Source of the DNA: an uncultured Spartobacteria bacterium
Lineage (GTDB): Bacteria > Verrucomicrobiota > Verrucomicrobiia > Chthoniobacterales > UBA6821
Assembly: GCA_903847935.1 (NCBI GenBank)
Contig: CAINEX010000052.1
Coordinates: 1-39,392, forward strand
Length of the DNA stretch: 39,392 nt
Reading direction: 5' to 3'
How positions within the stretch are numbered: position 1 is the first letter of the stretch; each line of letters starts with the position of its first letter. Position numbers and translations under genes: made by a program. The notes under the pieces are model-generated. The model saw nothing but the letters and a program-made list of their open reading frames with translations, did not search any database and was not told the DNA's origin. Below are positions 6,610 through 13,136 of this stretch, in pieces.

Positions 6610-7779
6610 CTAGGGTTCTACCGTACTAACCCAATGGAAGCCGCCATCCTTGATCTGCATGATCACGGCACTCTTGACGGGATCCCTGGTTCCCTCAGGA
6701 TAAATGAAATGTCCGGTCACCCCATCGAAGTCCCGGGTGGAGGCCATCACATCACGTACCGCAGAGCGGTCGACCTTACCTGCCTTAGCGATGCTGTTTG
6801 CCGCGAGCGTCATGGCGTCAAAAGTCAGGGCGGCCACATCGTCCGGAGCATTACCGAAACGGGCCGTGTAATCCGCGATGAATTGCTTTGCCTTGGGGGT
6901 GGCGGCCTCGGTTGAGTAATGGTTGCAGAAATATGATCCCTCAAGATTCTTTCCCGTATCGAGCTTGATGATGTCGGGAGAACTCCAGGCATCGCTGCCA
7001 AGGAAGGGAGCCTTGATTCCAAGTTGACGTGCTTGAGCCGCGATCAGCGGGGTGTCGTTGTAGGGTGCGGGCAGATAGATGATGTCCGGGGAGGATTCAC
7101 GGATCTTGGTCAACTGGGCCGAAAAGTCGCGATCACCTGTCGAGTAGGTCTCCATGGAGACCACCTTGCCGCCCGCCTTCTCGAAGGCTTCCTTAAAGAG
7201 GGTGCTCTGACTCGTCGGAGCCTCGGAAGAGACATCGTACAACACAGCTGCCGTCTTGGCATGAAGGTTCTTGGTAGCGAAAGCAGCGAGAACCGGTGAC
7301 TCGAAACGATCCGTGAAGCAGGCCCGGAAGACATTTTTTTTCGGCTTTCCAGTCGTGGAGTCGGTGGTGGTCTTCGGGTTAGTCGACCAGGGTGAGATCA
7401 TCAGACAACCGAGCGACTCGGAAATCTCACTGGCTGGAATTGCGCATGAGCTGGCATCGGGCCCGACCATGACGAGCACACCCTCTTGGGAGATTAAGCG
7501 CTGGGCGGCGGCGGCGGATTGGTCAGCCTTGCAGGAATTGTCGACCACGGAAAGTTGAACCGGAAGCTTGGTCCCTCCCACGGCAATCCCACCACTTTTG
7601 TTAATCTGCTCGATGAAGAGTTCAGCAGCTTGTTTGCAGGATGTTCCGACCGCGGGCATCTCGCCGGTCAACTCGGCGTTGATTCCAATTTTAACCGAGG
7701 GCTTGCTCGGCTGGCAGGAGGTCAGCAAAATGCAGTTGAGGACAAGCGCAGTGAGTAAGGGACGGAAGTGCAAGTGCAT
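6610..7779 (-). CDS. livK: Periplasmic substrate-binding lipoprotein of the Liv-type importer
   Basis: A 389-residue leucine-binding-like protein (periplasmic binding protein, type 1 fold). Residues 1-22 form a lipoprotein signal with lipobox L19-T20-S21-C22, so the mature protein is anchored to a membrane. The sequence VKIGINAELTG...GTSCKQAAELFIEQINKSGGI, then MVGPDASSCAIPASEISESLG and FLGSDAWSSPDI, follows the LivJ/LivK/AmiC-type family. Such proteins bind branched-chain amino acids, amides, urea or other small solutes, and I cannot tell which. It heads the operon and sits 80 bases downstream of the ArsR-methyltransferase gene. That gap contains two stem-loops and no clear promoter. Confidence 0.9.
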   Translation of the reverse strand: MHLHFRPLLTALVLNCILLTSCQPSKPSVKIGINAELTGEMPAVGTSCKQAAELFIEQINKSGGIAVGGTKLPVQLSVVDNSCKADQSAAAAQRLISQEGVLVMVGPDASSCAIPASEISESLGCLMISPWSTNPKTTTDSTTGKPKKNVFRACFTDRFESPVLAAFATKNLHAKTAAVLYDVSSEAPTSQSTLFKEAFEKAGGKVVSMETYSTGDRDFSAQLTKIRESSPDIIYLPAPYNDTPLIAAQARQLGIKAPFLGSDAWSSPDIIKLDTGKNLEGSYFCNHYSTEAATPKAKQFIADYTARFGNAPDDVAALTFDAMTLAANSIAKAGKVDRSAVRDVMASTRDFDGVTGHFIYPEGTRDPVKSAVIMQIKDGGFHWVSTVEP

Positions 7780-7797
7780 CGCTGTTGACTAACGCCT

Positions 7798-7851
7798 CGG
7801 CAGGCTTGCCGCAAACCTATTCATGCCGATCCCCGGCAACAACTTTGCCGG
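7798..7851 (-). promoter_or_regulatory. Two stem-loops in the leader between the regulator gene and livK
   Basis: Two perfect inverted repeats lie in the 80-base gap. One is CCGGCAA / TTGCCGG (7833-7851, five-base loop), just after the regulator stop codon. The other is CGGCA / TGCCG (7798-7811, four-base loop), 18 bases before the livK ATG. Neither is followed by a T tract in the minus direction. They could limit read-through from the regulator gene, protect the livK mRNA end, or do nothing. Confidence 0.35.
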
Positions 7852-7859
7852 AATATTCC

Positions 7860-8789
7860 TCAAGACTTAAGGCCTGTAGCGAGGATTGTCTGAAAGTTGG
7901 GCGCCAACTGCTCCCTCGCCACGACGCTGACCTCAAGATCGCAAAATCCCGACTTCTCCATCATGGCGTGTAGTTCCACACCGGAGAACCCGAGCCAAAC
8001 ATGGGCGTAGAGTTCCTTGGCCTGCTCATAGGTGTGACTGGCAAGGTCTAGGATGAGGATCCGCCCCCTCGGCTTAAGGATCCGAAAGGCGCTCTCCACT
8101 GCGCGTTGGGGTCGGGCCGCGTGGTGAAGAGCTTGACTGAAGAGGACAACATCGACGGATTCATCCTCGATCGGAGGCTCCTCAAGATCACCCAAGCGGT
8201 ATTCCAGATTTGCGAACCCGTTCTCTTTTGCGAGGCGTGAACCATACTCGACCATTTTTTCAGAATTATCGACAGCGATGACTTTTTTTGCGGTTCTGGC
8301 GAGCAACTGGGAAAGAGTTCCCTCCCCCGCCCCCATATCGGCAATAATCATGGGAGGCATGAGTCGGAGGAGCCCGTGGGCCAGGGCCTGCCAGGAACGT
8401 CCCGGCACGTAGGTGCGACCGAATTTTCCCGCCAGCTTGTCGAAATAATCTGCTGCACGGTCTCGACGTTTGTTCAACACAAGTTGAAGTGCCTGCCGAT
8501 CTCGATCCCCCTCTGCGAGTTCTGAAACCGCGGCGGCGACAGCCTCCCGTAACGGGGCGATGGCGGAAGGAACGGCAGCGTAGTAGATATTCTTTCCAAC
8601 CCGGCGATCAAGGACAAGACCTTGACGACGAAGCATTCCAAGGCTGGCTGAAATACGGGACTGCCCCATGCCCAAGGCCTCCTGCAATTCAGCTACCGTA
8701 AGCTCTTCCTCTAAGAGCAGCGACAGCAACCGCAATCGCGTGGGCTCAGCAAGGGCCCTGAGGGATTGGAGAATTGACGCCATACCCAT
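7860..8789 (-). CDS. ArsR-type transcription regulator fused to SAM-dependent methyltransferase domain
   Basis: This 309-residue protein has two domains. Residues 1-95 form an ArsR winged helix: LRALAEPTRLRLLSLLLEEELTVAEL, then QSRISASLGMLRRQGLV and the wing RRVGKNIYY. There is no cysteine in this part, so it is not a classic metal sensor. Residues about 115-309 form a class I methyltransferase: motif I D151-MGAGEG, acidic D174 in AVDNSE, then DVVLFSQALHHAA and ILKPRGRILILDL. It is divergent from metK-ahcY, the genes that make SAM and clear SAH. The ArsR-family regulator SahR of Proteobacteria controls such genes in response to SAH. By context this protein is probably an analogue that reads SAM or SAH through its methyltransferase domain. 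Whether it still methylates anything is unknown. A palindrome sits three bases upstream of its ATG. Confidence 0.85.
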   Translation of the reverse strand: MGMASILQSLRALAEPTRLRLLSLLLEEELTVAELQEALGMGQSRISASLGMLRRQGLVLDRRVGKNIYYAAVPSAIAPLREAVAAAVSELAEGDRDRQALQLVLNKRRDRAADYFDKLAGKFGRTYVPGRSWQALAHGLLRLMPPMIIADMGAGEGTLSQLLARTAKKVIAVDNSEKMVEYGSRLAKENGFANLEYRLGDLEEPPIEDESVDVVLFSQALHHAARPQRAVESAFRILKPRGRILILDLASHTYEQAKELYAHVWLGFSGVELHAMMEKSGFCDLEVSVVAREQLAPNFQTILATGLKS

Positions 8790-8791
8790 TT

Positions 8792-8807
8792 ACATATACG
8801 TATACGT
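8792..8807. promoter_or_regulatory. Palindromic candidate operator between regulator and metK
   Basis: ACATATACGTATACGT is a 16-base imperfect palindrome (one mismatched pair) with a perfect core TATACGTATA at 8795-8804. The overlapping ACGTATACGT (8798-8807) is also perfect. It lies 3 bases upstream of the regulator ATG and 66 bases upstream of the metK ATG. Binding here would block the regulator's own transcript directly and could act on metK from upstream. ArsR dimers typically bind such short AT-rich palindromes. Confidence 0.6.
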
Positions 8808-8834
8808 TAATAAGTAAAGCTGCCACCACTAGGC

Positions 8835-8843
8835 TGCTATCTT
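8835..8843 (+). promoter_or_regulatory. Possible extended -10 promoter of metK
   Basis: TGCTATCTT matches an extended -10 element (TGn followed by TATCTT), with no good -35 at the expected distance. A start about seven bases downstream would give a leader of roughly 24 bases. That is far too short for any SAM or SAH riboswitch, and none is seen. Confidence 0.3.
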
Positions 8844-8873
8844 TGAAATCACGAAACACAACCCCACGATCCC

Positions 8874-10061
8874 ATGTCACGCAGTTACATCTTCTCTTCT
8901 GAATCCGTCGGTGAAGGCCACCCGGACAAAGTTTGCGACACCATCTCCGATGCCATTCTCGATGCCTGCCTTGCCCAGGATCCCATGAGCCGAGTGGCCT
9001 GTGAAACATACGCCAAGAGCAATATCGTGGTCGTCGGTGGCGAGATCACGACCAAAGCCAAACTCGATTACAACGACATCATCCGGAGAGCGATCCGCGA
9101 GATCGGCTATGTGAATAGCGATGACGTTTTCCACGCCGACACAGTCTTTATCAACAACATCATCACCGCACAGAGTCCCGATATCGCACAAGGCGTCGAT
9201 GCCAAAAAGGCAGCTGGCAAAAAGACCGCAGAGCAGGGGGCCGGCGATCAGGGACTCATGTTCGGGTACGCCTGTGACGAGACACCGGAACTCATGCCCG
9301 CACCGATCATGTATGCTCATCGCCTTGGCCGCGAACTCACACGCCTCCGCAAGAGCGGCGCCGCCAAATGGCTCCGTCCGGACGCCAAAAGTCAGGTCTC
9401 GGTGGAATATGTCGACGGGAAACCTTCACGTATCGTGAATGTCGTGATCTCAACCCAGCATTCCGAAGGGGTGTCACACAAGGAGATCGAGAAATTTTGC
9501 ATCGAAAAGGTCATTAAGAAAGTTCTTCCTGCCAAGATGCTCACCAAGAAGACAGAGTTCCTCATTAACCCGACGGGACGTTTCGTGATCGGTGGCCCTC
9601 AGGGTGATACGGGGCTCACGGGCCGCAAGATCATCGTCGACACCTACGGCGGGATGGGACGTCATGGAGGCGGTGCTTTCTCAGGCAAGGATCCAACAAA
9701 AGTTGATCGTTCCGCCGCCTACATGGGGCGCTACGTTGCCAAGAATGTCGTGGCCGCTGGTCTTGCCAATCGTTGTGAAGTTCAGTTTGCGTACGCGATC
9801 GGCTATCCCGATCCTGTCTCCATCCATATCGACACCTTCGGGACCGCCACTCTTCCAGAGGAGGCAATCGAAGTCGCCGTGAAAAAGACTTTTGGATTCA
9901 AGCCGGCCGAGATCATTAGACAACTCAGGCTACGTCGTCCGATTTACTCAAAGACGACCAACTACGGTCACTTCGGCAAGAACGATGCCGACATTACCTG
10001 GGAAAAAACCGATAAAGCGGCAGTCCTCAAGAAAACAGCCCTTGCCGCCGCTAAACTCTAA
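8874..10061 (+). CDS. metK: S-adenosylmethionine synthetase
   Basis: MetK makes S-adenosylmethionine from methionine and ATP in the cytosol. The 395-residue protein has [15 protein letters not shown] at the N-terminus with the ATP/Mg ligands His16 and Asp18, the signature GAGDQG at 122-127, [42 protein letters not shown], and the phosphate-binding [16 protein letters not shown]. Length and motifs are standard. It is followed after 44 bases by ahcY, so SAM production and SAH removal are encoded together. No Shine-Dalgarno motif precedes the ATG. Confidence 0.98.
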
Positions 10062-10105
10062 TCCTCCCGATCACCTCCAATAGATTCATTAATCATCTGA
10101 AATTC

Positions 10106-11518
10106 ATGACAAATAAAACCGACTACAAAGTAGCAGACATCACACTCGCCGAGTGGGGTCGCAAGGAAATCAGCATCGCCGAACAGGAGATGCCCGGCCT
10201 CATGTCCATCCGTGCAAAGTACGCCAAGGACAAGCCGCTGAAGGGAGTCCGTATCACCGGATCCCTTCACATGACCATTCAGACCGCGGTGCTCATCGAG
10301 ACCCTTACCGATCTCGGCGCCGATGTCCGCTGGGCCAGTTGCAATATCTTCTCAACACAGGACCAGGCGGCTGCCGCGATCGCCGTCACAGGCGTTCCTG
10401 TCTTCGCCTGGAAGGGTGAGAGCCTTGAGGAATACTGGTGGTGCACCTACAAGGCCATATCCTTCGATGGCGGCAAGGGACCAGAGATGGTCGTCGATGA
10501 CGGCGGGGATGTGACTCTTCTCCTCCACAAGGGATACGAACTCGAGGAAGGGGACAATTGGGTTAACACACCTTCAGGCAACCATGAGGAGCAGGTCATC
10601 AAGGATCTCCTCAAGCAGGTTTACAAGGAGAACCCAACCCGCTGGCACGACATCGTCAAGGACTGGCGCGGCGTTTCCGAGGAGACCACCACCGGCGTTC
10701 ACCGTCTTTATAAGCTCCATGAGAAGGGCAAGCTACTCGTGCCTGCTTTCAATGTGAATGACTCCGTGACCAAATCGAAGTTCGACAATCTCTATGGTTG
10801 CCGTCACTCGCTCGTCGATGGACTGAACCGCGCCATTGACGTCATGATCTCCGGTAAGGTCGCCGTGATCTGCGGCTACGGCGATGTCGGCAAGGGTAGT
10901 GCCCAGTCCCTGCGTGGACAGGGAGCCCGCGTCATCATTACCGAGATCGACCCGATCAATGCTCTTCAGGCCGCCATGGAGGGCTACGAAGTCACCACAC
11001 TCGAGGAGACCCTTGGACGCGCTGACATCTACGTCACCACCACCGGTAACGTGGGAGTCATCACGTTCGAGCATATGAAACGCATGAAGGATCAGGCGAT
11101 CATCTGCAATATCGGTCACTTCGACAACGAAATCGAGGTCGACAAGCTTCAAGGCGACACATCAGTCAAGCGCACCAATATCAAGCCTCAGGTGGACAAG
11201 TATACCTTCCCCGGCGGCAATGAGATCTTCCTTTTGGCGGAGGGACGCCTCGTCAATCTCGGTTGTGCCACAGGTCACCCAAGCTTTGTCATGAGTGCCA
11301 GCTTCAGCAACCAGACCCTTGCGCAACTCGAACTCTGGAAGAATCGTGAAACCTACAAGCCGGGCGTCTACGTCCTGCCCAAAAGACTTGATGAGGAAGT
11401 CGCCCGCCTCCACCTCGACAAGATCGGTGTAAAGTTAACTCAACTCACCAAGGAGCAGGCCGAATACCTTGATGTTTCCTTGGAGGGCCCCTACAAGCCC
11501 GCCCACTATCGCTACTAG
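10106..11518 (+). CDS. ahcY: Adenosylhomocysteinase
   Basis: AhcY splits S-adenosylhomocysteine into adenosine and homocysteine with bound NAD+, removing the product inhibitor of methyltransferases. The 470-residue protein has [34 protein letters not shown], the conserved [21 protein letters not shown] with the active-site Lys and Asp, the NAD-binding [21 protein letters not shown], and the C-terminal KPAHYRY that donates Lys and Tyr to the neighbouring subunit. The insertion that separates bacterial enzymes from shorter archaeal forms is present. It is co-directional with metK, and a strong terminator follows it. Confidence 0.98.
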
Positions 11519-11532
11519 TCTCAGTATAAATT

Positions 11533-11570
11533 AAAAAAAGCCCCGGCTAGCAATTGGCCGGGGCTTTTTT
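11533..11570 (+). terminator. Rho-independent terminator after ahcY
   Basis: A perfect nine-pair stem, AGCCCCGGC / GCCGGGGCT with a nine-base loop, is followed by six T and preceded by seven A. It ends the metK-ahcY transcript about 20 bases after the stop. It is the clearest intrinsic terminator in the window. Confidence 0.93.
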
Positions 11571-11621
11571 ATTTGATGATCTACCCCATGGCACACTTCT
11601 TGCTGAATTTCACATTATTTA

Positions 11622-13136
11622 ATGAAAAACAATTCCATGATATCTAACCCCGATGTTGTCCTGATCGGAGCCGGGATTATGAGCGCAACTCTCGGCGTTC
11701 TCCTCAAGGAACTCGATCCCGCACTAAATATCCAGATTTTCGAGACCCTGGACGATGTGGCTCTTGAGAGCTCCGATGCATGGAACAATGCTGGCACCGG
11801 ACATGCGGCACTCTGTGAACTGAACTACACACCAGAAAAAACAGATGGTTGCATCGATGTTTCCAAAGCCATCAAGGTCAACGAGTCGTTCAAGATTTCA
11901 CTCCAATTCTGGGCCTATCTCATTGAGAAAAACCTCATCGCCCTTCCCTCGGAATTCATCCGAAAAGTTCCACATATGAGTTTTGTCATTGGTGACAAGG
12001 ATGTGGAATTCCTTCGCAAGCGACATGCCAGCATGAAGGAGGTCCCTCTCTTTAAGGCGATGGAATTTTCTGATGACCCTAAGAAACTAGCTGAGTGGAT
12101 GCCCTTGGTCATGGAAGGACGAGATCTCTCACAACCACTTGCAGCGACCCATACGGAGGATGGAACTGATGTCAACTTTGGGGCTCTTACACGCAATCTT
12201 TTCAACCATCTGAAGGATTTGGAGGGAGTTTCCATTCATCTGAATCACGAAGTTCGAAATCTCACTCGCAAAAAAAACGGTTCCTGGATGATTCAGATCA
12301 AGGATAAATCCTCAGGAAGCGAACGCTATCTGAATACAAAATTCGTCTTCCTCGGCGCCGGAGGGGGAGTGTTACCACTACTTCAAAAATCAAAGATTCC
12401 CGAAGGTGATGGTTATGGTGGCTTTCCTGTCAGTGGGCAGTGGCTTCGGTGCACCAATCGGGAGCTGATCGAACAACACCAGGTCAAGGTCTACGGCAAG
12501 GCTTCCATGGGAGCGCCGCCAATGTCGGTCCCCCACCTGGACACCCGGATGATTGATGGTGAAAAGGGGCTTCTCTTCGGACCCTTCGCAGGATTCAGCA
12601 CCAAGTATTTGAAGTATGGTTCCGTGTTTGATTTTCCACTCTCCATTCGGTCCAGCAACCTTCTGCCGATGACAGCAGCCGGGCTACAGAATATTACACT
12701 TACGATCTATCTGATTGAACAAGTCCTTCAATCCTCAAATGATCGTCTACGTGCCCTGCGTGAGTTTATTCCGAAAGCACGCATGGAAGACTGGAAACTC
12801 GAAACAGCCGGTCAGCGTGTTCAAATCATCAAGAGAGATCCCCAAAAAGGAGGCATTCTTGAATTCGGCACGGAGATCATCTGTGCGGGTGATGGTTCAC
12901 TTGCAGCCCTACTGGGAGCCTCTCCCGGAGCATCTACCTCCGTGGCCATCATGCTTGATCTCCTCAGCGAGTGCTTCCCCGAGAAAGTCAGATCACCGTC
13001 ATGGCAGACGAAACTCCATGAAATGATCCCGTCTTACGGAAAGTCCTTGGCCAATGATCCACGCTTCCATCAAGAGATCACAGATCGGGCAAACGCCATC
13101 CTTGGCTTTGAACCACTTAACGCGGAAGCCATCTGA
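11622..13136 (+). CDS. mqo: Malate:quinone oxidoreductase
   Basis: Mqo is a membrane-associated FAD enzyme that oxidises L-malate to oxaloacetate and passes electrons to quinone, bypassing NAD-dependent malate dehydrogenase. The 504-residue protein begins with VVLIGAGIMSATLGVLLKELDP for FAD binding and continues with AWNNAGTGHAALCELNYTPE, RKVPHMSFV, DGTDVNFGALTR, FVFLGAGGGVLPLLQKS and GGFPVSGQWLRC. The C-terminal LGASPGASTSVAIMLDLL is also conserved. The first ATG (11622) and a second at 11637 are both possible. The second would start directly at the flavin-binding strand. No Shine-Dalgarno motif is seen. It starts 51 bases after the ahcY terminator and converges on kduD. Confidence 0.96.
   Translation: MKNNSMISNPDVVLIGAGIMSATLGVLLKELDPALNIQIFETLDDVALESSDAWNNAGTGHAALCELNYTPEKTDGCIDVSKAIKVNESFKISLQFWAYLIEKNLIALPSEFIRKVPHMSFVIGDKDVEFLRKRHASMKEVPLFKAMEFSDDPKKLAEWMPLVMEGRDLSQPLAATHTEDGTDVNFGALTRNLFNHLKDLEGVSIHLNHEVRNLTRKKNGSWMIQIKDKSSGSERYLNTKFVFLGAGGGVLPLLQKSKIPEGDGYGGFPVSGQWLRCTNRELIEQHQVKVYGKASMGAPPMSVPHLDTRMIDGEKGLLFGPFAGFSTKYLKYGSVFDFPLSIRSSNLLPMTAAGLQNITLTIYLIEQVLQSSNDRLRALREFIPKARMEDWKLETAGQRVQIIKRDPQKGGILEFGTEIICAGDGSLAALLGASPGASTSVAIMLDLLSECFPEKVRSPSWQTKLHEMIPSYGKSLANDPRFHQEITDRANAILGFEPLNAEAI

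Follow-up and report, generated by a model that had tools for sequence, protein, structure and literature searches.

SahR is an SAH-responsive regulator of the ArsR family that controls ahcY, metH, metF, and metK in alpha-, delta- and some gammaproteobacteria; these four genes together with sahR itself form its core regulon (PMC4239095). The SahR protein of E. aridi is a further proteobacterial example (PMC8877191). The SahR site is a 20-bp palindrome and has the layout ATC-10 nt-GAT in common with the sites of SamR, a regulator that has been kept apart from SahR at an identity in the range of about 30% (PMC4239095). SAM has been suggested as the effector of SamR, because the SamR regulon contains no SAM-cycle genes other than metK (PMC4239095).

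The window analysed here is a stretch of 39,392 nucleotides from an uncultured Spartobacteria bacterium (Verrucomicrobiota), in which a gene for an ArsR-family protein lies next to metK and ahcY. These two genes are very probably switched by this ArsR-methyltransferase protein via a 26-bp palindromic operator, and the protein is probably a repressor of the SahR type that is released from this operator by SAH. The observations behind this reading are the domain make-up of the protein, the conserved motifs of its pocket, the conserved divergent arrangement of the genes, the conservation of the operator, and the association of the operator with the regulator and with SAM-cycle genes. This type of switch is already known from SahR, and what is new is its occurrence in a phylum for which no earlier description was found: among the matches listed in PubMed Central for SahR and Verrucomicrobia, there were only papers on other subjects.

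Architecture of the regulator

The regulator gene is located on the minus strand (7860..8789) and encodes a protein of 309 aa, which was characterized by ORF calling, Pfam, alignment, and an AlphaFold2 model. Pfam detects an ArsR helix-turn-helix domain (PF01022) at residues 16-59 (45.7 bits, cut-off 22) and a class I methyltransferase domain (PF08241) at residues 151-246 (83.6 bits). Pfam also places the class I methyltransferase domain at about residues 148-263. The entire methyltransferase-like domain spans about residues 145-307 with the DxGxGxG motif at residues 151-157 (M1 numbering). The annotated start codon is the ATG at 8787-8789 (M1), and the start codon of the relatives corresponds to M3, the ATG at 8781-8783. 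In the AlphaFold2 model (pLDDT 89, pTM 0.73), a helical linker connects the winged helix to the methyltransferase domain, which is Rossmann-like. Thus, the fusion of an ArsR winged helix with a class I methyltransferase domain, encoded divergently from metK-ahcY, which had been proposed in a preliminary description of the locus, is borne out by Pfam and NCBIfam.

In NCBIfam, the protein matches a family with the generic name "metalloregulator ArsR/SmtB" (77 bits, cut-off 55), and there is a weak match to the ArsM family (66.8 bits, below the cut-off of 263). These matches would fit a common metal-responsive repressor of the ArsR/SmtB type, or an arsenite methyltransferase, whose link to metK is spurious. 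Such a protein is hardly conceivable here, as the winged helix is free of cysteine, just as the preliminary description had it, and the single cysteine of the whole protein is located in the methyltransferase domain. Furthermore, operator and neighbourhood follow SAM-cycle genes and not metal genes.

Among solved structures, BH2331 and YcgJ come closest to the methyltransferase domain (Z about 21) and are followed by SAH-bound enzymes; the fold matches active enzymes (BH2331/YcgJ-like, TleD, ArsM). The cofactor motifs DxGxGxG, D172, and D211 are invariant in an alignment of 60 relatives. Both observations are compatible with a bifunctional protein that is a repressor and has retained methyltransferase activity on some substrate. 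This is quite improbable, however, as an SAH sensor would equally predict conservation of the pocket and as no specific enzyme family of NCBIfam scores above its cut-off. In addition, the genes at the loci seen are always accompanied by genes of the SAM cycle, and no substrate pathway recurs beside them. In a SahR-type repressor, the methyltransferase-like C-terminal domain would serve as the sensor.

Proteins with this architecture are also found in plasmid records, where they are encoded directly before metF in Sinorhizobium and Rhizobium, before metF-metH in Novosphingobium, and before ahcY-metH in Leptospira. The window protein can be aligned over its full length with rhizobial, Methylobacterium, Novosphingobium, and Leptospira relatives at 29-33% identity. 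Residues common to the window protein and its proteobacterial and Leptospira relatives are R16, R18, Q41, S45, DxGxGxG, D172, D211, LH220, D246, H250, and LGF266 (M3 numbering). Because these relatives have the same two domains, the ArsR-methyltransferase fusion was not invented in this lineage. The suggestion that use of the methyltransferase domain as a sensor arose in this lineage is therefore not supported, since SahR and the relatives beside metF, ahcY, and metH share the architecture. The effector domain of SahR is reportedly related to SAM-dependent methylases, a relation ascribed to Novichkov et al. 2014. In a regulator tree that joins long branches and serves only to show this grouping, the window protein groups with Verrucomicrobiota. 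Two MAGs labelled Proteobacteria bacterium (L016) and Bordetella parapertussis (L071) contain Spartobacteria-like and Bryobacterales-like loci, respectively, and are probably mislabelled or mixed bins.

The metK-ahcY locus and its conservation

The regulator gene is transcribed divergently from metK and ahcY, which are both located on the plus strand and predicted to be regulated. The gene metK (8874..10061) encodes methionine adenosyltransferase (TIGR01034, 570 bits, cut-off 309.4) and ahcY (10106..11518) encodes adenosylhomocysteinase (TIGR00936, 632.9 bits, cut-off 497.6); the two genes are presumably co-transcribed. A hairpin in the gap between ahcY and mqo (11445-11667) yields weak scores on both strands with several unrelated leader and sRNA models, and this region is probably a bidirectional terminator.

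A single scan of bacterial and archaeal genomes yielded 80 relatives, nearly all of which belong to either Verrucomicrobiota or Bryobacterales (Acidobacteriota). The divergent arrangement is conserved in these relatives: in 70 of the 80, the regulator gene forms a divergent pair within 300 bp, either with metK (63) or with ahcY (7), and contig ends explain several of the exceptions. The seven pairs with ahcY are from Bryobacterales, in which ahcY is the sole SAM-cycle gene adjoining the regulator.

The absence of a SAM or SAH riboswitch from the metK leader, which had been noted before, was confirmed with Rfam, as no covariance match to these families was obtained within 7500-12000 even at E <= 1. 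In several Verrucomicrobiales, the operator ends four bases from the metK start codon and, therefore, there is no space for a leader RNA. A scan for sigma-70 promoters over 8700-8960 found none; judged from the short spacing only, the operator would overlap the promoters.

A 26-bp palindromic operator

When 59 intergenic regions of relatives, all from outside the genus of the window, were searched blindly for motifs, one 26-bp palindrome was obtained, TATCAACnnATCnnGATTTGTnnATA (27.0 bits), which is symmetric about a central dyad. This search was restricted to intergenic DNA and replaced an earlier one, whose output was metK coding sequence. Mean complementarity of the motif is 0.60 at the central axis and 0.1-0.34 at nearly all other axes, with about 0.47 at the axes 4 bp on either side of the dyad. 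In relatives from both Verrucomicrobiota and Bryobacterales, the operator stands before metK or ahcY, and ATC-N10-GAT is present in 51 of the 59 intergenic regions (0.9 in shuffles).

In the window, the predicted operator CATTTACATATACGTATACGTTAATA was located by motif match at 8787..8812, where it overlaps the M1 codon of the regulator. It has a 12-2-12 layout with the dyad at 8799.5 and scores 9.8 bits with the motif learned from the 59 out-of-genus relatives, compared to a shuffle mean of -21.5; in 14 close relatives the best match is found at the same place. The window site agrees with the 26-bp motif in position and dyad but differs from it in the triplets: ATC-N10-GAT is missing from the window's own site and was found in 0 of 15 cases in its genus. 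The operator is contained in an extended imperfect palindrome (8783..8816) with 18-nt arms that are 78% complementary around the same centre. It is directly followed by the flank AGTAAAG (8813..8819), which is invariant in the genus and reads cGTAAAG in sister genera. Within the genus, the 31 bases at 8789-8819 are strongly conserved, whereas the remaining intergenic DNA is not. A second dyad, TTTAC...GTAAA, is centred at 8803.5, 4 bp to the right of the main one, and is equally symmetric in the genus. Placement of the operator by eye at 8795-8820 was rejected because of a score of -25.8 with the learned motif, compared to +9.8 for 8787-8812.

The preliminary description had pointed to the decamer TATACGTATA as a core palindrome three bases before the regulator ATG. 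This decamer is indeed present at 8795..8804, at a distance of 5 nt from the ATG, and occurs once in the window (0 expected from shuffles). It has the dyad in common with the best 26-bp motif match and forms the centre of the operator, but the real symmetrical element is larger. As a conserved element the decamer does not hold: it is unique to the window among 74 intergenic regions, and a 96%-identical relative (L018) carries TATACATATA instead. With no occurrence outside the window, exact TATACGTATA was rejected as the recognition element, and what recurs in relatives before metK, ahcY, and metH is the 26-bp operator.

Distribution of sites and extent of the regulon

The site pattern matches 18 of 25 genomes of relatives (reversed control, 0) and, across the phylum, 34 of 194 genomes (reversed control, 2). 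When loci were retrieved by the site pattern alone, 24 of 30 were at the start of metK(-ahcY) or metH; the remaining six include three genomes with a site but without the regulator, in which the sites are probably due to chance. Of these 194 genomes, 74 encode the regulator, and the site is present in 31 of the 74 compared to 3 of the 120 genomes without regulator (p = 2e-12). Within one genus of 17 genomes, nine of the ten genomes with regulator have the site and none of the seven without (p = 4e-4); ahcY is retained in all 17, with or without the regulator. The seven genomes of this genus (g7) that have lost both regulator and site are G030, G076, G094, G130, G162, G209, and G218.

Additional sites are located before metH in one Bryobacteraceae genome and before a DUF6580-metH pair. 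Some TonB receptor genes also have an upstream site, and the receptors resemble the B12 receptor with a score below its cut-off. Sites of this kind, before genes for a DUF6580 membrane protein and MetH and before B12-receptor-like TonB receptors, are seen at L103, L107, and L111; as a hint, they suggest that DUF6580 may serve cobalamin uptake.

In the window's own genome, genus-specific patterns with up to 3 mismatches matched only the known site, and the upstream regions of metH and bhmT-metF, read by eye, contain nothing resembling the operator. The only MTHFR found in this genome is a 613-aa homocysteine methyltransferase-MetF fusion (G000:C46:8393-10144). Two explanations are conceivable: the regulon may have been reduced to the operon pair, or its other sites may be too diverged to be recognized. 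The proposed SAM-cycle switch acting on metK-ahcY via a palindrome in the shared promoter is supported by conservation, but in the own genome it does not extend to a metF or metH site.

Recognition helix and operator bases

In tests that were picked after viewing the aligned sequences and whose statistics ignore phylogeny, two residues of the recognition helix go together with operator bases. With H, Q, or Y at residue 49, operator position 11 is C in 36 of 38 cases, compared to 3 of 16 with small residues, and residue 48 goes with G at operator position 14. In a mutual-information scan over all residue-base pairs, the recognition helix did not stand out, and kinship dominates the ranking of the pairs. 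In the Bryobacterales loci L069, L071, L077, and L080, R45 of the helix is replaced by Q or T and the operators are devoid of the C6/G19 pair, e.g. TATCGTAGTATCGAGATTTTACGATA; L084 with S45 retains this pair.

In the genus of the window, operator and recognition helix have both diverged. Taken together, this may tentatively be read as a completed specificity switch along with a regulon shrunk to the own operon pair, although we consider this joint reading rather doubtful. In such a switch, the ATC/GAT triplets of the ancestral operator would have changed into AT-rich ATA/TAT-like bases, and S/T48 and H/Q49 of the recognition helix into A48 and S49. If this were true, the phylum would contain a naturally occurring series of repressor-operator pairs in co-evolution.

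Effector and proposed mechanism

The regulator would bind to the operator as a dimer and repress metK-ahcY. Upon build-up of SAH, this compound would fill the cofactor pocket and the repressor would leave the DNA. This would allow formation of MetK and AhcY, by which SAH would be cleared and SAM restored. Release triggered by SAH is the likeliest option because the cofactor motifs are intact, ahcY is a neighbour, and SahR is known to behave in this way.

The same regulator and operator could also respond to SAM, either by SamR-like co-repression or by release, or to the SAM:SAH ratio, as the preliminary description had assumed. A SAM effector would agree with metK being the first gene of the operon, with the binding of both SAM and SAH by class I methyltransferases, and with the suspected SAM response of SamR, the SahR homologue at about 30% identity. 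However, ahcY, for whose product SAH is the substrate, is part of the same operon and is the sole SAM-cycle neighbour in Bryobacterales, and SAM was assigned to SamR from a regulon without SAM-cycle genes except metK (PMC4239095). Hence, an effector other than SAH alone appears unlikely, and SAH alone is a better guess than the SAM:SAH ratio because ahcY is in the regulon. At the level of sequence, some features would count against a SahR-type repressor, namely the window site without ATC-N10-GAT, the single site in the genome, and the identity of 29-33%, which is the range between SamR and SahR.

Comparison with known systems

As a sensor, the window regulator is not of a new kind. As a probable SahR-type protein, it would add Verrucomicrobiota and Bryobacterales (Acidobacteriota) to the Proteobacteria as groups in which the SAM cycle is controlled by such a protein. 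The defined 26-bp operator predicts metK, ahcY, metH, and B12-receptor-like genes as targets, and the relatives supply repressor-operator pairs with natural variation.

In other bacteria, these genes are under the control of SAM and SAH riboswitches, which respond to the same ligands but are RNA-based, and no Rfam SAM/SAH family scores at the locus. The Leptospira interrogans plasmid protein (L120, NZ_CP043881.1) resembles the window regulator in its two domains and its SAM-cycle neighbours. A perfect 24-bp palindrome, GGATATCAAGATATCTTGATATCC, with an ATC-N5-ATC-N2-GAT layout is located before the ArsR-methyltransferase-ahcY-metH genes of this plasmid. In contrast to the divergent window regulator, L120 is operonic, and the two proteins are 30% identical. 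SamR of Xanthomonadales is a distant SahR homologue (about 30% identity) and controls methionine and SAM genes including metK via a 24-bp palindrome (PMC4239095). SamR regulons contain metB, metX, and hom but not ahcY, whereas the window operon includes ahcY.

In comparison to SahR of Proteobacteria, the system described here occurs in other phyla, its regulator has only about 30% identity to alphaproteobacterial members, and its site comprises 26 bp with a 12-2-12 dyad; in the genus of the window, the ATC/GAT triplets were lost and the regulon is seemingly down to the own operon pair. Both systems have in common an ArsR winged helix with a methyltransferase-like effector domain, a site at the regulator's own promoter, a palindromic ATC-N10-GAT site, here in the relatives from Verrucomicrobiota and Bryobacterales, and metK, ahcY, and metH as targets, which are predicted here from the position of the sites.
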